Positions 29,241 through 38,580 of a stretch of DNA of 64,000 bases are shown here, piece after piece. Source of the stretch: Frankiales bacterium (GTDB lineage: Bacteria > Actinomycetota > Actinomycetes > Mycobacteriales > Jatrophihabitantaceae); the NCBI GenBank assembly GCA_025966315.1, contig JAOPUZ010000069.1, forward strand, positions 1 through 64,000, written 5' to 3'. Each line of letters opens with the position of its first letter. The stretch's first letter is position 1. The translations under genes were made by a program, and so were the position numbers. The notes below the pieces were generated by a model that was not told the DNA's origin, did not search any database, and was given only the letters and a program-made list of their open reading frames with translations.

Positions 29241-30839
29241 TCAGCGCTGCAGCTCGGCCAGCAGGTCCGTACCGATCGGCACGCCCAGACCAGTGCACGC
29301 GTCCCAGCCAGGGCGAGCCTCGAAGGCTCCGTTGTTGCCTTGGGTGATGTCGCGGAAACCGGTCACCGAACCAGTGCTCGACAACCCGGCGTACAGCTTC
29401 GGCTGAAGCAGGCCAAGCTTTGTGCCCAGCCCTTGGGCGAGCCGGCACACCAACCCCGCCCAGAGCGGTGCCACCGCGCTGGTGCCGCCGATCACGGTTG
29501 CCTGCCCGTCGACCAGCACCTGGTAGCCCGTGCGTGGATCGGCATCGGCTGCGACATCAGGTACGCCTCGTCCGGTGCCCGAGGCGGGCGTCGGCGCCGG
29601 AACGCCCGCTGATTGTTGCCAATCCGGCAGCGGAAAGGCCGTACTCACACCGCCGCCGGTGGCACCGCCGCCCGAGGACGAGGCCGAGGTGTTGTTGTTC
29701 CACACGGTCTCAGAACTGACCGAACCGGAGCTCGGATCAGCGTGCAGGCTGGTACCGCCGCAGGCCAGAACATGTGGGCTGGAAGCGGGAAAGTCCACGT
29801 GCGACGCCTGGTCGGTGGCCCGATCCGTACTGCCGTCATCGCCAGCCGCGACGGTAACCGTGACACCGAGCAGAGACGCGTCGGCGAAGGCCTGATCCAT
29901 CGCGGTCCGCGCCTGCTCCGTCCATTGGTCTTCGCTCTGCCCCCAGCTGATGGACATCGCCGTCGGCGTCGGACTGGCGTGGGCGGCGGTGCTCACCGCG
30001 TCCAGGAAGCCGTCATCGGTGTTGGGCGCGAAGTAGACGACCAGATCCGCGGCCGGCGCAATGCCGCCGGCCACCTCGATGTCGAGTAGTACCTCACCGT
30101 CGGCACCGGATGGGTCCTGGCCGGGCTGATTTTCGGCGCCGTCCACCCCGACCGCGCGAACCGAAGGCGTCGCCAGACCGAGCCCCCCGAAGTAGGCGTC
30201 CAGGTCGGCTGGTCCGAACCCGCCCCCCAACTCGATGATTGCCAGCGTTTGCCCCGATCCGTCGGTGCCTTCGGGCATCTCGTAAACGCGGGCCAGGTCG
30301 AGCGGCGTGTAGCTCGTGGTCACCGCATTGGCCTGCGCGATGAGATACCGGGAGCGAGCCTGCGGACGATTGTCCAGCCCCAGCACCGCAACCACTACCG
30401 GTTCAAGATCCACCGGCAGCTGCAACGACCCCGAGCGATGACGAACTTCGACGTCGCCGCGGCCGACCACCGGCACCGTCCGCAGATCGAGTTGAGTGCC
30501 GAAGAACTTGTTCAGCCGGTCGACCGGAGCCGAGATCCGCATCCGTCGTGAGGCCGGATCAACAGAGAGAACATCGATTCCCGCGGCGGACAGCCCGTCC
30601 TGCACGCGCTGAACGTCGGCCGGATCAGCGCCGAACCGTTCCTCGAGTTCGGCGGCGGACAACGGTGCGCCGCTGAGGTCGGCCGGAGTGGGCTCTGCGC
30701 GTCTGCGTAAGACCAAAGTGGCTTCGACGCGGGCCTGTGGGTCGAGGGGCCGGGTGGTACCGCGGCTGTCCAACTCGGCGCGGTAGCTGCCTGGCTGCTC
30801 GGTGGTGGCGGGGGTGTCATCAGGGGTTGATTCGCTCAT
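29241..30839 (-). CDS. S53-family (sedolisin/kumamolisin) peptidase
   Basis: The serine-carboxyl peptidase has 532 residues from the ATG 30839; the longer ORF upstream is not protein-like. A pro-kumamolisin domain (about 40-160, ending in DNRPQARSRY) precedes the catalytic domain. The Glu/Asp pair is in GEVLLDIEVAGGI, the oxyanion Asp is in the following beta segment, and the nucleophile Ser is in IGGTSAVAPLWAG. C-terminal Asp-rich residues should bind calcium. These enzymes self-process and work at acid pH. No signal peptide is visible, as in many bacterial members. It lies just upstream of fadA2, which may be chance or read-through. Confidence 0.9.
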   Translation of the reverse strand: MSESTPDDTPATTEQPGSYRAELDSRGTTRPLDPQARVEATLVLRRRAEPTPADLSGAPLSAAELEERFGADPADVQRVQDGLSAAGIDVLSVDPASRRMRISAPVDRLNKFFGTQLDLRTVPVVGRGDVEVRHRSGSLQLPVDLEPVVVAVLGLDNRPQARSRYLIAQANAVTTSYTPLDLARVYEMPEGTDGSGQTLAIIELGGGFGPADLDAYFGGLGLATPSVRAVGVDGAENQPGQDPSGADGEVLLDIEVAGGIAPAADLVVYFAPNTDDGFLDAVSTAAHASPTPTAMSISWGQSEDQWTEQARTAMDQAFADASLLGVTVTVAAGDDGSTDRATDQASHVDFPASSPHVLACGGTSLHADPSSGSVSSETVWNNNTSASSSGGGATGGGVSTAFPLPDWQQSAGVPAPTPASGTGRGVPDVAADADPRTGYQVLVDGQATVIGGTSAVAPLWAGLVCRLAQGLGTKLGLLQPKLYAGLSSTGSVTGFRDITQGNNGAFEARPGWDACTGLGVPIGTDLLAELQR

Positions 30840-30873
30840 GTCTCGATGATGCCCCCGCCCACCGACAAAACTG

Positions 30874-31029
30874 TTACCAGTAGTGGCGGCGGCCGCCGAT
30901 TTCGCGGCCCAGGCCGCCGGCAATGGCCAGCACGGCACCGATGATGAGCACGATGATGCCCAGCGTCCACAGGATCGGCACGCTGAACACGAACCCGACG
31001 ATCAACAGCACGATGCCCAGAATTATCAC
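30874..31029 (-). CDS. Small hydrophobic two-helix protein (DUF6131-like)
   Basis: The predicted protein is 51 residues: MIILGIVLLIVGFVFSVPIL, a turn WTLG, a second helix IIVLIIGAVLAIAGGLG and a charged tail REIGGRRHYW. The GTG at 31029 has GGGAG eight bases upstream; a GTG three codons earlier has no spacing to that site. It matches a family of tiny actinobacterial membrane proteins of unknown function. It lies between the STAS gene and the S53 gene on the same strand. Confidence 0.75.
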   Translation of the reverse strand: MIILGIVLLIVGFVFSVPILWTLGIIVLIIGAVLAIAGGLGREIGGRRHYW

Positions 31030-31858: not shown

Positions 31859-32461
31859 GTGGCCGCAACTGCACGCCGTTCCACCGCCAAGGCGCCGACT
31901 AAGAGCGCGGTCACCACCGATCCGCCGTTCACGATTCCAGGCATGTCCCAGGGCGACGCCTCGATGCTGATCGAACTGCTGCAGGATCGGCTCAATGCAC
32001 TCAATGACCTCGCCCTGACGCTGAAGCACGTCCACTGGAACGTCGTCGGACCGAACTTCATCGCCGTGCACACCATGCTCGATCCGCAGGTCGACGCGGT
32101 CCGCCTGATGGTCGATGCGGTCGCGGAGCGAATTGCCACCATCGGCGGCAGCCCGGTGGGTACGCCCGGCGCCCTGGTCAAGCAGCGCAGCTGGGACGAC
32201 TATTCGATCGGTCGCGCGGACGCAATCGAGCACCTCAGCGCACTGGACGTCGTCTACGCCGGTGTCGTCGAGTCGCACCGCAAGGCGATTTCGGACACCG
32301 AAGAGCCGGACCCGGTCACGCAGGATCTGCTGATCGGACAGTCTGGCGCGCTGGAACAATTCCAGTGGTTCGTCCGTGCGCACATCGAACAATTGGGCGG
32401 CACACTGGCGAACAAGGGCGCCAACACCGAGATGGCGGCAGCGCGCAGAGTCAAGCGATGA
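31859..32461 (+). CDS. dps: Dps-family DNA-binding ferritin-like protein
   Basis: The 200-residue protein starts at GTG 31859, with GAAGGAGT upstream. The ferritin-like four-helix fold includes LKHVHWNVVGPNFIAVHTML, with the intersubunit ferroxidase ligands, and VDAVRLMVDAVAERIATIGG. A 35-residue basic N-terminal extension (ARRSTAKAPTKSA) is suited to DNA binding, as in mycobacterial and streptomycete Dps. It stores iron and shields DNA from oxidants. Its stop overlaps the next ORF (ATGA), so it heads an operon with glycosyltransferase, acyl-CoA dehydrogenase, deacetylase and methyltransferase genes, an unusual set of partners. Confidence 0.9.
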   Translation: MAATARRSTAKAPTKSAVTTDPPFTIPGMSQGDASMLIELLQDRLNALNDLALTLKHVHWNVVGPNFIAVHTMLDPQVDAVRLMVDAVAERIATIGGSPVGTPGALVKQRSWDDYSIGRADAIEHLSALDVVYAGVVESHRKAISDTEEPDPVTQDLLIGQSGALEQFQWFVRAHIEQLGGTLANKGANTEMAAARRVKR

Positions 32462-32724
32462 CGATCCCCCCGGTGCAACCGGGGCCCGCCGTCCCGCCGA
32501 TCGCACCGGAACCGGCCCCGCCCCCGCTGCCGCCGACGGAACCGCAACCGCCCGTTCCGCAACCGCCCACACCACAACCACCGTCGCCCGAGCCCGCGCC
32601 GCCACCGGAGCCGACGCCGACGAACCCGGATCCCGATCCACCGGCGCCGATACCGGATCCGCTACCGCCCGCACCGGCGCCCGACCCAGTGCCGCCAGCG
32701 CCTTCCGTGCGCGCCGGCGGATGA
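32458..32724 (+). CDS. Proline-rich small protein (about half Pro)
   Basis: The 88-residue ORF has 44 prolines, mostly in PxP and PEP/PDP patterns (for example PPTEPQPPVPQPPTPQPP), with acidic residues towards the end and no hydrophobic helix. It starts with an ATG overlapping the dps stop and ends in a TGA overlapping the glycosyltransferase ATG, so translation coupling at both ends supports it as a real gene. No signal peptide is visible. It should be extended (polyproline II). Function is unknown. The alternative is a translational bridge that is conserved only as a spacer. Confidence 0.55.
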   Translation: MTIPPVQPGPAVPPIAPEPAPPPLPPTEPQPPVPQPPTPQPPSPEPAPPPEPTPTNPDPDPPAPIPDPLPPAPAPDPVPPAPSVRAGG

Positions 32725-33494
32725 CGCTGGCGGCCAACGGTTCGATCGATCGGGTTGCCATCGTGGTGCCCGCCCACAACGAGGAAGTCCTGCTGGACGC
32801 GTGCCTCCAATCGTTGGATCGTGCCGCGGCTTCAGTGCCGGTGCCGGTGCATGTATGCATCGTGCTCGACAGCTGCACGGACGGTTCGATGGATGTTGTG
32901 GCGGCGTTCGCGCCCCGTTGGCTGGCCTCGATCGACGCGCTCGACGTGACCCACCGCAGCGTGGGCGCGTCACGAGCCGCGGGAGCTGATTTCGTGCTCG
33001 GGCGCTTCGCCGTGTCAGGATTGTGGCTGGCGAACACCGACGCGGATTCCGAGGTTCCCGTGAATTGGATCGGGCGGCAACTCCTTCATGCCGGCGACGG
33101 TGCCCAGGCCGTGGTCGGTACGGTCGTCGTCGAGGACTGGTCGATGCACAGCACCGAGGTACGCCGGACCTACCTGAGTCGATACCGGTTCACGCCTGGT
33201 CACCGCCATACCCACGGCGCAAACCTGTCCATGACAGCAGCCGCCTACGTACGCGCCGGCGGCTTCCGCGACCTGCGCACCAGCGAGGACGTTGCGCTGG
33301 TCGAATCCCTGCTCGCGGAAGGGCAATCGGTGGTGTGGGCCGCGGATGTGCCGGTCCTGACCAGCGCGCGCCGGATTGGCCGCGCGCCGCACGGATTCGC
33401 CGACCACCTGCTCAGCCTCGTTCCGGGCGATCGGTGCGCCGAGCGGATGACATTAGGAGACGCCCCGGCGACGCCCACCGAACGGGCTATCTGA
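32721..33494 (+). CDS. GT2-family glycosyltransferase (short)
   Basis: The GT-A fold enzyme has 257 residues. RVAIVVPAHNEEVLLDACLQ begins the domain. LDSCTDGSMDVV is the nucleotide-sugar segment, and NTDADSEVPVNWI gives the DxD metal site. HTHGANLSMTAAAYVRAGGF and the EDV motif in RTSEDVALVESL complete the acceptor side. It has no membrane helices and lacks the extra domain of processive NodC-type synthases. The ATG overlaps the upstream stop and the downstream gene overlaps its stop. I infer that it makes a glycoside that the deacetylase and methyltransferase later modify. Substrate is unknown. Confidence 0.85.
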   Translation: MTLAANGSIDRVAIVVPAHNEEVLLDACLQSLDRAAASVPVPVHVCIVLDSCTDGSMDVVAAFAPRWLASIDALDVTHRSVGASRAAGADFVLGRFAVSGLWLANTDADSEVPVNWIGRQLLHAGDGAQAVVGTVVVEDWSMHSTEVRRTYLSRYRFTPGHRHTHGANLSMTAAAYVRAGGFRDLRTSEDVALVESLLAEGQSVVWAADVPVLTSARRIGRAPHGFADHLLSLVPGDRCAERMTLGDAPATPTERAI

Positions 33495-34513
33495 TGTCGG
33501 ATACCGAGACGGTGGCCGCCGGCCTTCCCGGCAGTCGGATCCGGGAACTCATAGCGCGGGGCGCGGACGAGATTCCGCTGCCGGGCCAAGGCGAAACGCT
33601 GTCGCGTTGGCAACGCCTGGCCGAGGTGGCCGACGAGGATCTGGGGCTGGTCAAACTCTTCGAAGGTCACACCGACGCACTGGCCATCCTGGCTGAACTG
33701 GGCGTGTCGACGAGTGACCCGCTCCCCCGCGCTGAAGGCGACGTGTGGGGGACCTGGGCCGCGGAGCCGCCGTCGGCCCGGCTTCGTGCATCGGGCGACG
33801 GCGATCAACTCTTCGTGGACGGCCGAAAAGCATGGTGCTCCGGTGCGGACGTGGTCAGTCATGCTCTCGTCACCGCGTGGGACGCGCAGGGCCGGCAATG
33901 CTTGGCCGCAGTGCGAATGGACGAAGCCGGGGTCGAGGTCACCGGCGAGGGCTGGCACGCCGTCGGCATGGGTTCGGTGGCGAGCCCGGACGTGCTGTTC
34001 GACCACGTCCGTGCCGTGCCCGTCGGCCGCCCGGGTCAGTACGTGCAGCGGCCGGGTTTCTGGCACGGCGGCTGTGGGATAGCGGCCTGCTGGTACGGAG
34101 GGGCCCTGCTCTTCGCCGATGCCGTCGCTCAGCGTTGCGCGGATCGCCCGGACCCACACACCCTCGCCCACCTGGGCGCCATCGATACCGCGATGCTGGG
34201 CACCCGCGCGTTACTGGGCGAAGCAGCGGCCTGGATCGACCGCAACCCAACCGCCTCGGCCCAACAATGGGCTTTGCGGGTAAGGGCGTCCACCGAATCG
34301 ACCGTGACCGAAGTGCTCGAGCGGGCGGGCCGGGTACTCGGTGCCGGACCGCTCTGCCGGGATCCGCGGACCGCACGCCACTTTGCCGATCTGCCGATTT
34401 TCCTCCGGCAGAGTCACGCCGAACATGATCTTGCCGCGCTGGGCGAAACACTGGCTGCCGATCCGAGTGCCGCCAGGCAGGCGTGGTCGCTACGAGGTGA
34501 AGCACATGACTGA
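33494..34513 (+). CDS. Acyl-CoA dehydrogenase-like protein
   Basis: The 339-residue protein starts at an ATG overlapping the glycosyltransferase stop (TGATG). Sequence such as GTWAAEPPSARLRASGDGDQ and LFVDGRKAWCSGADVVSHAL matches the middle beta domain of the flavin acyl-CoA dehydrogenase fold. The C-terminal helical domain has GAIDTAMLGTRALLGEAAAW and RVLGAGPLCRDPRTARHFAD. It is about 40 residues shorter than usual and the N-terminal helix bundle is reduced. The catalytic Glu is not identifiable by eye. In this operon a dehydrogenase on a carrier-bound acyl or amine substrate is possible, or a non-catalytic relative. Confidence 0.8.
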   Translation: MSDTETVAAGLPGSRIRELIARGADEIPLPGQGETLSRWQRLAEVADEDLGLVKLFEGHTDALAILAELGVSTSDPLPRAEGDVWGTWAAEPPSARLRASGDGDQLFVDGRKAWCSGADVVSHALVTAWDAQGRQCLAAVRMDEAGVEVTGEGWHAVGMGSVASPDVLFDHVRAVPVGRPGQYVQRPGFWHGGCGIAACWYGGALLFADAVAQRCADRPDPHTLAHLGAIDTAMLGTRALLGEAAAWIDRNPTASAQQWALRVRASTESTVTEVLERAGRVLGAGPLCRDPRTARHFADLPIFLRQSHAEHDLAALGETLAADPSAARQAWSLRGEAHD

Positions 34514-35285
34514 AGACTCCGATCTGGCCGCGACCGCCGACCGTACGGTCGCCGGTGAGGGCACACCGATCGCGGATTGGCAGGCTTGGCCGCCCTGGCG
34601 TCAGGCACCGTTGATCGATGTCGACGTACTCGTACCCGAAGGCTGCCGGTTGGTCGTCATCTCCCCCCATCCGGACGACGAGATTCTCGGCAGCGGGGCG
34701 TTGCTGCACGACGCGCACCGAGCCGGTCGCGAGGTACTGGTGCTCGCGGTAACCGACGGCGAGGGCAGCCATCCCGGTTCGCGGCAGTGGGCACCGGGCG
34801 AGCTGGGTTCGACGCGGGCCTATGAGAGCGAGAAAGCCCTTGCGGTGCTGGGCATTCCGGCCGACCAACTCGTCCGGCTCGGGCTGCCCGACGGCGGCCT
34901 AGTCCGCCGTCAAGCCGAGGTCAGCCGGGCGCTGGTCAGCCACATCGACCGGCGGGACGTGGTGGTGACCCCATGGCGTTACGACGGCCACCCGGACCAC
35001 GAAATCGTTGCCCACGCAGTGTTGGACGTCCTGGACATAACCGCGGCCGCCCACCTCGAAGTGCCGATCTGGGGCCTGCACTGGGCTCGGCCGGAGCAGC
35101 GGGTGCTGCCCTGGCATCGCGCCCACCGGCTCCCGTTGGACGCCGAAACTCAGAAGCTCAAAGCGGCGGCGGTGGACTGCTTCGGCAGCCAACTGGCGCC
35201 GGACGAAACCACCGGTCGCGACGCCGTGCTGCCGACCTGGGCGCTGGACCGGCTCGTCACAGACTGCGAAGTCTATTTCCGGTGA
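34506..35285 (+). CDS. PIG-L family N-deacetylase
   Basis: The 259-residue zinc deacetylase has the PIG-L metal-binding motif VVISPHPDDEILGSGALLHD and the downstream DGHPDHEIVAHAVLDVL (second His pair). The family removes acetyl from GlcNAc linked to inositol, lipid or small molecules; MshB and the antibiotic deacetylases are examples. An N-terminal extension of about 45 residues is not typical. It overlaps the preceding gene by eight bases and the methyltransferase gene by four (GTGA). In many genomes PIG-L and a NodS-like methyltransferase are fused; here they are separate adjacent genes. Confidence 0.9.
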   Translation: MTEDSDLAATADRTVAGEGTPIADWQAWPPWRQAPLIDVDVLVPEGCRLVVISPHPDDEILGSGALLHDAHRAGREVLVLAVTDGEGSHPGSRQWAPGELGSTRAYESEKALAVLGIPADQLVRLGLPDGGLVRRQAEVSRALVSHIDRRDVVVTPWRYDGHPDHEIVAHAVLDVLDITAAAHLEVPIWGLHWARPEQRVLPWHRAHRLPLDAETQKLKAAAVDCFGSQLAPDETTGRDAVLPTWALDRLVTDCEVYFR

Positions 35286-35968
35286 TCCAGGACGACACCC
35301 CTGCGGGCCAGGCGGCCGATTCCACCGCCCTGACGCACCGTTCGCCGCTGACCGATCCGGTTGATCTCGCGTACTTTGACGCGCAATACCAGCACCACGA
35401 GGATCCGTGGCATATCCGTGACAGCTGGTACGAGACGCGCAAACGGGGGCTGGTGCTGGCCGCGCTCGACCGGCCGTCCTACGCCAACGGCTTCGAGCCG
35501 GGCTGTTCGGTGGGCGAGATCACGGCCGCCCTGGCGCCGCGGTGCCGTTCGCTGCTGGCGGTGGACGCCCACGTCTCGGCGGTGGAAACTACGCGTCGCC
35601 GGCTCGGCCCGGACACCCACGTCATGGTCGCGCAGGCCGTATTGCCCAACGATTGGTCGGCGGTGGTCGCGCCGTCGGGACCCTTCGATCTGGTCGTCGT
35701 CAGCGAGATCGGTTACTTCTTCACACCCGTGGCCTGGCGCGAGTTCTGCTCGTTGCTGTCGGGCGGTCTGACCGCGGACGCGACCGTGCTTGCCTGCCAC
35801 TGGCGGCCGGATTTCGCCGAGCGCACGATGGCCACCGCCGAGTTGCACGAGATACTCGGCGACGCGTTGGGCCGGCCGGTGCAGTCAACGTTGACCGACG
35901 CCGATTTCAGCCTGCAGGTGTGGGCCGGTGCGGGTGCATCGATCGCCGAACGGGACGGCTTGCGGTGA
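35282..35968 (+). CDS. NodS-like SAM-dependent methyltransferase
   Basis: The 228-residue class I methyltransferase starts at a GTG overlapping the deacetylase stop. FDAQYQHHEDPWHIRDSWYE and ETRKRGLVLAALDRPSYANG are typical of NodS-type N-methyltransferases. Motif I is GFEPGCSVGEITAALAPRC, and the family pattern FDLVVVSEIGYFFTPVAWRE follows. NodS methylates the amine exposed when NodB deacetylates a chitin oligosaccharide. By analogy this enzyme may methylate the amine exposed by the PIG-L deacetylase. The gene ends 3' with a GTGA overlap to a topoisomerase-like stub. Confidence 0.85.
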   Translation: MIQDDTPAGQAADSTALTHRSPLTDPVDLAYFDAQYQHHEDPWHIRDSWYETRKRGLVLAALDRPSYANGFEPGCSVGEITAALAPRCRSLLAVDAHVSAVETTRRRLGPDTHVMVAQAVLPNDWSAVVAPSGPFDLVVVSEIGYFFTPVAWREFCSLLSGGLTADATVLACHWRPDFAERTMATAELHEILGDALGRPVQSTLTDADFSLQVWAGAGASIAERDGLR

Positions 35969-36144
35969 TTGGGCTGAGCACGGTCTCGCCCGATGACCGC
36001 GGTTGGACGCGAGGGCGCCAGGGCAACGGCTTCCGCTACGTCGACGGGCATCCGTCAAGCTACTGCGCCGGGCGCTGTCCGATACCTGAGGCCGATCCGC
36101 TCAACGGCTTGCCGAGATGGATGGCCCCGGGCTCGTTGGCGTAG
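35965..36144 (+). pseudogene. Truncated N-terminus of a eukaryotic-type topoisomerase IB
   Basis: The frame from GTG 35965, overlapping the methyltransferase stop, reads SPDDRGWTRGRQGNGFRYVD and resembles the start of bacterial topoisomerase IB proteins (pattern GxxRRRxGxGFxYxD). It then becomes non-homologous and stops at 36144, inside the convergent GNAT gene. All catalytic parts are missing. It is probably a deletion relic at the operon's end; the similarity is from memory of the family pattern. Confidence 0.45.
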
Positions 36145-36584
36145 TGCCCGAACGCCGGAATCTCGCGATAACCGGATGACTCGTACAGCTGAATCGCCTC
36201 GGGCTGCTGGTCACCGGTTTCCAGTATCAACCAGTCCATACCGGCCGCACGGGCGGTGGTTTCGAGCTCGGCCAGCAAGGCCCGGGCCACACCGCGGCCC
36301 CGGGCTTGCGGCGCGACGTACATCCGCTTGATCTCGGCCGCCGGCCCGGCCCACGCGGTGTCCACCCGCTCGTCACCATGCCGCCGCCAGCCGCCCATGC
36401 CAACGGGCTCGGCGCCGTCGTAGGCGAGCAGAAAAGTCCCCGCCGGTTCGGCGAACTCGGCCGGATCCATGGGCGATTCGTCTGGGCCACCGTAGCGACG
36501 GACGTATTCGCGCTGCACGTCCGCAGTCAGACGCTGGGCGTCATCGTGGTCGTATCGCACGGTCTGGATTTTGATTTCGGGCAC
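36060..36584 (-). CDS. GNAT-family N-acetyltransferase
   Basis: The 174-residue acetyltransferase has motif A around AEIKRMYVAPQARGRGVARA, with the acetyl-CoA pyrophosphate loop, and motif B in LILETGDQQPEAIQLYESSG followed by YREIPAFGHYANEP. It resembles the small amino-acid/polyamine-acetyltransferase-like group; the substrate is unknown. Its last residues overlap the topoisomerase stub on the other strand. It is monocistronic. Confidence 0.88.
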   Translation of the reverse strand: MPEIKIQTVRYDHDDAQRLTADVQREYVRRYGGPDESPMDPAEFAEPAGTFLLAYDGAEPVGMGGWRRHGDERVDTAWAGPAAEIKRMYVAPQARGRGVARALLAELETTARAAGMDWLILETGDQQPEAIQLYESSGYREIPAFGHYANEPGAIHLGKPLSGSASGIGQRPAQ

Positions 36585-37599: not shown

Positions 37600-38580
37600 A
37601 TGCAAAATGGTTCCAACCCTGTGCAGAGATTGTCAGAGCTTCGGCCCGCAACCCATGATGAGGACGTGGACAGCAACCAAGACGGGCCGGGGCCGGACGA
37701 GGATGTCCCCCTGGGCGAGGTTCGGCTGTCCGATGTCTCCCGCCTGCTCGGCGTTCCGATGCCGACACTGCGTTCCTGGGAGTTGCGTTACGGCATACCC
37801 GCCACCGATCGGGCGCCTGGTCGGCATCGGCGTTACGCAGCCGCGGAGCTGCACGCGCTGCGCCTGATGCGTGACGAGATCGCGCGGGGCATGCGTGCCG
37901 GTGCGGCCGCCCATTCGGTCCGAAGCGTGCTCGGATTGACCGGCCGAGCCGCCGAGTTGGTGAGCGGATTCCTCGACGCGGCGATGCGCGGGGACCCCTC
38001 GGCCATTCGCGAACAGCTCGACCGTGCGCATCGCGAACTCGGCCTGCCCGCCTGCGTTGATGACGTGTTGTTGCCCGCGATGCGGCAGATCGGATCCTGG
38101 TGGCAAGCCGGCCAGTGCGATGTCGAGCAGGAACGGCTGACGACCGAGACGGCCCGAGCCTGGCTGGATCGGGTGGCCGCGGCAGCTCCGCCGAGCACGC
38201 ACGGCCGCCCGATCGTGCTCGCGTGCGGGCCGACTGACCTGCATACCCTCGGCCTCGAGGCGCTGGCCATGCTGCTGCGACATCAACGCTGGTCCTGCCG
38301 GGTACTCGGCGCTCGCGCCTCGGTGGTCGCGCTGGTCACGGCGATCCAGGCCTCCGGAGCAGTCGGGGTCGTCGTCGCTTCGCACCTCAAGACCGGACGG
38401 CGGCGGGCGGTGGAATCGATCCACGCCGCCGACGCGCTGGGCGTCCAGGTGTTCTATGCCGGCAATGCCTTTGGGTCTGAGTCGAATCGGCGCCAGGTGC
38501 CCGGGCGATACCTGGGCGTACGGGTTCAGGACGCGTGCCGTCTCATAGATGCCGCCCTCACGCCAATCGCGGACGCTTGA
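37600..38580 (+). CDS. MerR-family regulator with cobalamin-binding domain
   Basis: The 326-residue regulator has a MerR-type helix-turn-helix (about 45-110, RLSDVSRLLGVPMPTLRSWE, LRYGIPATDRAPGRHRRY), a helical middle domain and a B12-binding Rossmann domain (205-320). The lower-axial-ligand motif is intact as DLHTLG. In CarH/LitR photoreceptors the helical domain carries W-x9-EH; here it reads WQAGQCDVEQER, with Arg at the His position. So cobalamin binding is likely, but classic light control is uncertain. Family members control carotenoid or stress genes. It is divergent from the ANTAR gene, and its TGA abuts the crotonase stop. Confidence 0.85.
   Translation: MQNGSNPVQRLSELRPATHDEDVDSNQDGPGPDEDVPLGEVRLSDVSRLLGVPMPTLRSWELRYGIPATDRAPGRHRRYAAAELHALRLMRDEIARGMRAGAAAHSVRSVLGLTGRAAELVSGFLDAAMRGDPSAIREQLDRAHRELGLPACVDDVLLPAMRQIGSWWQAGQCDVEQERLTTETARAWLDRVAAAAPPSTHGRPIVLACGPTDLHTLGLEALAMLLRHQRWSCRVLGARASVVALVTAIQASGAVGVVVASHLKTGRRRAVESIHAADALGVQVFYAGNAFGSESNRRQVPGRYLGVRVQDACRLIDAALTPIADA

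Follow-up and report, generated by a model that had tools for sequence, protein, structure and literature searches.

A widely conserved gene cassette for putative aminosugar modification, headed by a Dps gene in a Frankiales genome

We describe a run of six overlapping plus-strand genes at positions 31859–35968 of the window, the first 64,000 nucleotides of contig JAOPUZ010000069.1 from a Frankiales bacterium (GenBank assembly GCA_025966315.1; Jatrophihabitantaceae, Actinomycetota). Four of these genes, encoding a family 2 glycosyltransferase (GT2), a flavoprotein of acyl-CoA dehydrogenase (ACAD) fold, a PIG-L N-deacetylase and a NodS-like methyltransferase (MT), recur in ordered form in two phyla. 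The description that fits them best is a widely conserved putative aminosugar-modifying cassette in which a flavoenzyme joins Nod-like deacetylation and methylation, and which is linked to stress genes in several lineages. On balance, and with confidence slightly better than even, we read the cassette as biosynthetic for a small aminosugar glycoside, with stress- or stationary-type regulation in several of the lineages that carry it. The other two genes are extras, a proline-rich open reading frame (ORF) found in the genus and a Dps gene that heads the run in this genome. Overlaps between neighbours, read directly from the sequence, are 4, 4, 1, 8 and 4 bases, bearing out the first-pass annotation, which had listed six genes overlapping by 1–8 bases:

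31859..32461, plus strand: Dps-like ferritin, first of the run; GTG start; PF00210 at 84 bits, above the gathering score
32458..32724, plus strand: Pro-rich ORF, ATG at 32458, 88 aa, 50% Pro; ATGA overlaps at both ends
32721..33494, plus strand: GT2; PF00535 at 49 bits, above the gathering score; predicted soluble GT-A fold
33494..34513, plus strand: ACAD-fold flavoprotein, 339 aa, the marker of the cassette
34506..35285, plus strand: PIG-L (LmbE-like) N-deacetylase; PF02585 at 103.8 bits (gathering score 28.2)
35282..35968, plus strand: NodS-like S-adenosylmethionine (SAM)-dependent MT; GTG start; PF05401 at 38.8 bits (gathering score 24)

Chance does not account for this arrangement: two phyla share the gene order, and other genomes of the genus also carry the Pro-rich ORF. 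The marker gene of the ordered cassette is present in about one-tenth of the sampled genomes of two large phyla, and no assigned product was found in the literature: searches returned no publication on the cassette itself, most subscription papers being outside their reach; the available portions of PMC4636370, PMC7792162, PMC12029717, PMC5423435 and PMC11089254 do not describe it; and searches pairing diacetylchitobiose deacetylase with NodS, on DszC residues and on nitrososynthases found nothing.

Distribution, gene order and deacetylase replacement

With the flavoprotein gene as marker, the cassette was surveyed in several collections. The marker is present in 31 of 61 genomes in the relatives set, a count that includes the window's own, in 36 of 296 evenly sampled Actinomycetota genomes, and in 36 of 397 genomes of Pseudomonadota, the phylum of the Variovorax genome G357; the latter two counts may be underestimates, with 5–7 candidates scored per genome. 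It also matches 53 records of the plasmid collection, of which the weakest (~28–30% identity) may be other ACAD-fold proteins, and at least 521 places in the GTDB species collection, the best 80 of these, largely from Pseudomonas, being retained. Within the window's genus the cassette is patchy, as judged from its presence in four of nine genomes and its absence from two relatives of 98–99% completeness.

Partner genes were detected with profiles built from our own alignments, and 46 core loci were chosen and fetched with ~16 kb. The flavoprotein gene is adjoined by the MT in 43 of these, by PIG-L in 41, by GT2 in 42 and by all of them in 39. Most often (26 loci) the genes are arranged as ACAD-PIGL-MT-GT; the window's own order, GT-ACAD-PIGL-MT, occurs in eight. 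Among the best 80 of the at least 521 GTDB loci the corresponding counts are 79 (MT), 78 (PIG-L), 65 (GT2) and 64 (all four). The 25 core loci of the Pseudomonadota sample have the MT in all and PIG-L in 22, while the 20 core loci of the Actinomycetota sample have each in 19, many GT2 genes there being cut off by short flanks. Conservation of the order outside this strain, which the first-pass annotation had made the test of its operon, is thus established in two phyla.

Exceptions are of several kinds. A same-strand MT is missing at L028 (=L137), L030, L031 (=L138), L032, L036, L066, L142 (=L233) and L159; PIG-L alone is missing, outside the divergent branch treated below, at L013, L037, L118, L158 (=L231), L178 (=L216), L188, L193 (=L209) and L197 (=L206). 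Some partner-lacking loci are contig ends, and at L028 a PIG-L and MT pair adjoins the flavoprotein gene on the opposite strand. At L066 the flavoprotein gene lies ~5.5 kb from the rest of the cassette on the same strand, which suggests an insertion. Distant Pseudomonadota relatives (L194–L198) keep PIG-L in four of five cases.

A far actinobacterial branch consists of nine genomes of family f32 and one of f23, whose flavoproteins score ~120–139 bits; the count leaves out L159 (split flavoprotein frame, no partners, <190 bits) and the Actinomycetota-sample genomes G120, G130, G280, G256 and G264, which are without a locus. None of the ten loci examined in this branch (L160–L168, L202) has PIG-L next to the flavoprotein gene, and each has instead a CE4 polysaccharide deacetylase gene upstream of the flavoprotein gene on the same strand, the matched stretches lying 78–181 nt apart. 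The CE4 motifs are intact in all ten. NodB (NCBIfam TIGR04243) is the best model for the four of these deacetylases that were scanned, at 106–133 bits, below its cut-off of 240. Following the MT is a ferredoxin-NAD reductase-like gene in nine loci, with L162 cut at that point, and GT2 comes next after it in the four loci fetched with 16 kb (L199–L202). When the cassette-type PIG-L was searched for in six of the genomes, none was found in five and a weak unlinked match in one.

Enzymes of both PIG-L and CE4 take N-acetyl groups off sugars, although the two families share no ancestry, and N-deacetylation is therefore the most likely identity of the step that was replaced. That unrelated N-deacetylases occupy the same position suggests an N-acetylated substrate, which is probably a sugar. 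This narrows the chemistry enough to make a targeted metabolite search feasible. In 14 distinct genomes a single open frame spans both PIG-L and MT (in the relatives set 10 of 28 core loci, in the Actinomycetota sample 4 of 20); these fusions, together with the replacement of PIG-L by CE4, argue that the cassette genes act together. Overlap counts that chose the start codon closest to a 4-base overlap are biased and carry no weight here.

Some observations on the wider set of loci may be recorded here. (i) Many of the Pseudomonas loci (L043–L122) have a second, more distant PIG-L gene within ~0.2–0.4 kb past the cassette, e.g. L043:12127-12888; the order ACAD-PIGL-MT-GT-PIGL was seen in 29, and ACAD-PIGL-MT-PIGL in 4, of the best 80 of the at least 521 GTDB loci. 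(ii) A 3.66-Mb Acinetobacter baumannii record filed as a plasmid (L259, NZ_CP077849.1) carries the cassette, with the resistance genes aph(3')-Ia, aac(6')-Ib and catB8 ~6.5–10 kb from the flavoprotein gene. (iii) Two records named Acinetobacter phage MD-2021a (CAKLQH020000004.1 and CAKLQF020000002.1; 232 and 306 kb) match the flavoprotein at 36% identity and are possibly bacterial contigs.

Enzyme families and the proposed pathway

PIG-L has two metal motifs, HPDDE and HxDH, and neither varies in 38 aligned rows (this alignment, A6, and its companions A7 and A8 comprise part of the non-redundant rows; for PIG-L the rows left out include L028 and the unrelated, other-strand protein of L037). 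Its nearest solved structures are TT1542 and archaeal diacetylchitobiose deacetylases. The MT profile matches 4isc, an uncharacterised structure, and then NodS (3ofj) at E 3e-27; NodS is its closest characterised relative, with 48.8 bits against the NCBIfam NodS equivalog (cut-off 300, not reached), and the MT is probably N-methylating. For GT2, the AlphaFold2 model (pLDDT 88.7) has a GT-A fold and the protein is predicted to be soluble. Its DAD and ED residues are conserved (alignments A8/A10), and its nearest folds are the WrtF fucosyltransferase, chondroitin polymerase and AvpGT, which do not fix the donor or acceptor. Against the TIGR04283 equivalog it scores 38.2 bits, short of the cut-off of 182.

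The flavoprotein hits only the middle domain PF02770 in Pfam, at 30.1 bits (cut-off 33.3), while its AlphaFold2 model (pLDDT 92.3) has a complete ACAD fold. In a fold search TdsC came at Z 30.0 (root-mean-square deviation 2.8, 315 aligned), with several dehydrogenases tied near Z 29–30. A profile search with a larger alignment placed seven chains of monooxygenase kind among its best eight (5gj7/5z8t, TdsC, MsuC, DszC), ordinary dehydrogenases being close behind; 5gj7 was grouped with the monooxygenases through its near-twin 5z8t, titled flavin-containing monooxygenase. Among weaker matches were a nitrososynthase (3mxl), DnmZ, and 3m9v/4kcf, which is listed as an FAD-dependent oxidoreductase and which we take to be KijD3; only DnmZ remained with the larger alignment. 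The profile of 13 SfnB-like proteins (from 14 loci, L276 yielding no usable frame; six matches pass the SfnB cut-off) scored 137 and that of 20 dehydrogenases 124, a small lead gained over fewer columns (258 vs 288).

Flavoprotein alignment A5 comprises the window's row and, once redundant entries were filtered out, 51 of the 110 long ones. Site residues were compared in an alignment with 46 family rows. Acyl-CoA dehydrogenases have a catalytic Glu in a YEGT-type site, although in isovaleryl-CoA dehydrogenase the base is at another place. At the columns of this site (303–309) no Glu occurs in any of the 46 family rows; all of them have Gln 306, and 45 have His 308, while 12 of the 20 dehydrogenases in the same alignment have Glu at column 307. 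Roles of flavin-site residues were taken after DszC. H59 is found in 46/46 family rows, 10/13 SfnB-like proteins and 8/20 dehydrogenases. Column 115 is C in the family, S/C/T in the SfnB-like set and I/V in dehydrogenases; column 116 is S/T almost throughout the three sets and does not discriminate; column 117 is mostly G in the family, as in the SfnB-like set. W154 is present in 46/46 family rows, in 12/13 SfnB-like proteins and in none of the dehydrogenases shown. H308 of the family does not align with the His of the SfnB-like set, which stands at column 306, two columns away.

The flavoprotein leans towards the group D flavin monooxygenases (DszC, TdsC, MsuC, SfnB), with which it shares the ACAD fold; C/S at column 115, G 117 and Trp 154 are as in the SfnB-like set. 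It differs from them in its ~20% identity over ~320 residues and in invariant stretches of its own near R186–W200 and R305–D312. We put the chance that it is an oxygenase or oxidase at about even. The first-pass annotation had taken it for an acyl-processing enzyme, and this claim did not hold up: with no YEGT-type Glu and with the lean to group D, acyl chemistry is unsupported, and no Pfam acyltransferase match occurs among the six genes. Nitrososynthases are flavoenzymes that N-oxidise aminosugars; by analogy with them the flavoprotein may N-oxidise an aminosugar. Its profile matches to 3mxl and DnmZ are weaker than several others.

The scheme we infer, including its substrate, step order and flavoprotein reaction, is as follows. 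(1) The soluble GT2 would transfer an N-acetylhexosamine from a nucleotide sugar to a small acceptor. (2) PIG-L, or the NodB-like CE4 enzyme in the far branch, would strip the N-acetyl group. (3) The NodS-like enzyme would N-methylate the freed amine. (4) The ACAD-fold flavoprotein, with reduced flavin or with electrons from a reductase, would oxygenate or oxidise the product, most likely at the amine. The product on our best reading would be an N-deacetylated, N-methylated and probably flavin-oxidised aminosugar glycoside. A bolder version, which we hold to be a long shot, is that an ACAD-fold N-oxygenase acts on the secondary amine to give an N-methyl-N-hydroxy (hydroxylamine or nitrone) aminosugar glycoside, an undescribed radical-scavenging or desiccation-protective stress metabolite of Actinomycetota and Pseudomonadota. 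As a stress protectant, the product would matter for survival of desiccation and of stationary phase; as a signal, it would place Nod-like chemistry far outside its known setting.

Stress genes, Dps and the Pro-rich ORF

Stress-related genes lie near the cassette in several lineages. All three genus loci (L123–L125) have topoisomerase IB and DJ-1/PfpI matches, and at L046 (=L125) the topoisomerase IB gene overlaps the MT gene by 4 bases. Loci of the plasmid collection have catalase, otsA/otsB, PA2169-type, CsbD, PRC-barrel, ferritin-like or DUF421 genes near the cassette. Among 102 neighbours at nine actinobacterial loci we counted sigma-70 (4), DJ-1 (3), STAS (3), and LigD, TopIB, Asp23 and GAF-ANTAR (2 each), and ordinary families recur likewise, e.g. 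BPD_transp_1 (3); these neighbour tables give the first 25 families, with 2–4 counts each, and the control table covers 106 of 247 control proteins. Ten stress or trehalose/glucan marker proteins matched 19 of 56 fetched loci, compared with one control locus out of 20, the controls coming from 20 of these genomes (Fisher p 0.009), a value that is overstated since the markers were picked post hoc, some queries came from counted loci (L235; L046, the L125 contig) and the three genus loci are non-independent.

A published expression table offers a parallel. In Table 2 of PMC5660220, A. baumannii genes ACICU_02432-02435 are listed as a glycosyltransferase, a SAM-dependent methyltransferase, LmbE and an acyl-CoA dehydrogenase-related protein, forming operon 'e', whose transcript levels in two colistin-dependent mutants are lower by 31- to 62-fold; the 33 down-regulated genes, by that paper's count, include trehalose-6-phosphate synthase and its phosphatase (OtsA/OtsB) and catalase. 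The likeness to the cassette extends to the four product names, the matching order, the single operon and the co-regulation with OtsA/OtsB and catalase; these genes are, for their part, rows of a table, given no function in the part of the paper available, and from the names, the order and the Acinetobacter loci found here we infer that they are orthologous to the cassette. The part of the paper available shows co-regulation, and no stress induction as such.

On this evidence a stress link is good for certain lineages and conjectural for the others; in this organism it goes no further than the Dps gene itself, and expression of the run under stress would be a conjecture. The first-pass annotation had proposed that a metabolite is made under oxidative or starvation stress; of this, a link to stress is borne out in several lineages and in the published co-regulation table, and it fails to extend to the eleven Pseudomonadota loci without clear stress families (below).

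The window's Dps scores 112.5 bits against NCBIfam Dps NF006975 (cut-off 114). No Dps match was found at the genus loci L123–L125; among the 56 fetched loci Dps matches occur at L128 and L223, with a weak one (20.3 bits) at the Comamonas locus L041, and the 20 controls have none. Dps is therefore a local addition and no constant cassette member, and its candidacy as a constant partner was dropped; it is the first gene of the run here, as first annotated, and not a fixed operon head. The Pro-rich ORF fared differently when we asked which of the two travels with the cassette. An ORF starting MTIPP lies directly upstream of GT2 in the three other genus genomes with the cassette (L123:9022-9273, L124:9648-9875 and L125:9111-9332, compared with 32458-32724 in the window), so that it is kept within the genus, in all four genomes. 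It has no Pfam match, and in a composition scan, whose other matches look like wrong-frame noise, no comparable ORF was noticed directly before GT2 outside the genus.

Promoter patterns upstream of Dps were also considered. A SigH-like pattern has two sites there (0.4 expected from simple shuffles) and a SigF/SigB-like pattern has none; at the other genus loci, each pattern has a single site in L123 and none in L124 or L125. A stress sigma-factor promoter before Dps was not used as evidence.

Alternative readings and neighbouring genes

Several points weigh against the aminosugar glycoside reading. A few flavoprotein genes stand without an adjoining partner (L030, L031 and L032 among others), and the cassettes of G631 and G573 have neither PIG-L nor a replacement nearby. 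PIG-L proteins act on non-sugar amides too. The fold searches rank monooxygenases and dehydrogenases alike, and the profile lead of the former is small, as given above. An FMN reductase lies within ~5 kb of the cassette in only 2 of 16 genomes, and a flavin reductase as a general linked partner was rejected. On the stress side, 112 neighbours at eleven Pseudomonadota loci have no clear stress theme among the families listed; trehalose/glucan genes alone, at 6 of 56 loci vs 0 of 20 controls (p 0.15), are non-significant; the SigF/SigB-like pattern is absent upstream of Dps; and the co-regulation in A. baumannii comes from mutants, with no stress experiment.

What the glycosyltransferase acts on is the point at which a related reading departs. 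Its acceptor could be trehalose or an alpha-glucan, the product being a trehalose derivative that bears an aminosugar, or else a modified polymer; we regard this as unlikely, if the least so of the alternatives. A Comamonas plasmid has otsA-ACAD-PIGL-MT-GT-otsB with mostly overlapping ends, a Legionella plasmid has otsB-GH65-PIGL-MT-GT-ACAD, and in Acinetobacter otsA/otsB lie ~2 kb off on the opposite strand. In Pseudomonas the cassette follows genes of the GH77 and alpha-amylase families, which we read as treY, malQ and glgX; genes of this sort occur in 49 of the 77 long loci among the best 80 of the at least 521 GTDB loci; in the available part of PMC4636370, glgA, treY, malQ, treZ and glgX of P. 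putida form one cluster. Yet the trehalose/glucan genes reach only the six fetched loci just cited, with none in the window region searched nor at L123–L125, and shared regulation equally explains the linkage. That the flavoprotein is instead a true dehydrogenase on an acyl or acyl-ACP intermediate, giving a product with an acyl chain, we consider quite improbable: its full ACAD fold, the dehydrogenases tied with TdsC, and public records that annotate it as acyl-CoA/acyl-ACP dehydrogenase speak for this, while the Glu-less site with its invariant Gln 306, the nearness of columns 115, 117 and Trp 154 to the SfnB-like set rather than to dehydrogenases, and the lack of any acyltransferase or acyl carrier match among the six genes in Pfam speak against it.

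Two further readings rest on likeness to known systems. In the rhizobial Nod-factor genes nodC-nodB-nodS, as in the cassette, a GT2, an N-deacetylase and a NodS-like N-methyltransferase are encoded together, and the far-branch deacetylase is NodB-like. The cassette differs in having PIG-L in most loci, a predicted soluble GT2 mostly without QxxRW, the motif of processive GT2 enzymes (2 of 28 GT rows have it), no acyltransferase match, an added ACAD-fold flavoprotein, an occurrence in two phyla, and stress genes nearby in several lineages. A Nod-factor-like lipochitooligosaccharide signal is very unlikely given the predicted solubility of GT2, the rarity of QxxRW, the unreached NodB and NodS cut-offs and the want of a Pfam acyltransferase match among the six genes, where a NodA model was not searched for. 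The first-pass comparison with Nod chemistry survives in its aminosugar part, in which Nod-like deacetylation and N-methylation now appear more likely than before, and not in its lipochitooligosaccharide part. Least probable of all is a route to a low-molecular-weight thiol, a variant of mycothiol or bacillithiol, suggested by a PIG-L gene beside a stress gene as in the MshB/BshB setting. PIG-L shares family and metal motifs with diacetylchitobiose deacetylase, MshB and BshB, and falls below every NCBIfam equivalog cut-off tested (MshB 20.7 vs 224, Mca 20.3 vs 277, BshB1 52 vs 182.5 bits); genes for MshB (393 bits) and Mca (485.5 bits), both above their cut-offs, lie at other places in the genome, and Pfam gave no ligase match among the six genes. 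We rejected this route. The first-pass annotation had named action on mycothiol as a refuting outcome, and the operon PIG-L is neither MshB nor Mca.

We turn from the aminosugar cassette to its neighbours in the window. A PHROGs comparison gave nothing useful. Genes noted near the run are:

29241-30938, minus strand: protein with a pro-kumamolisin activation domain
36060-36584, strand opposite to the run: GNAT gene, directly past the MT gene
37600-38580, plus strand: MerR-type regulator with B12-binding domains

Rfam and tRNA scans yielded two tRNAs.

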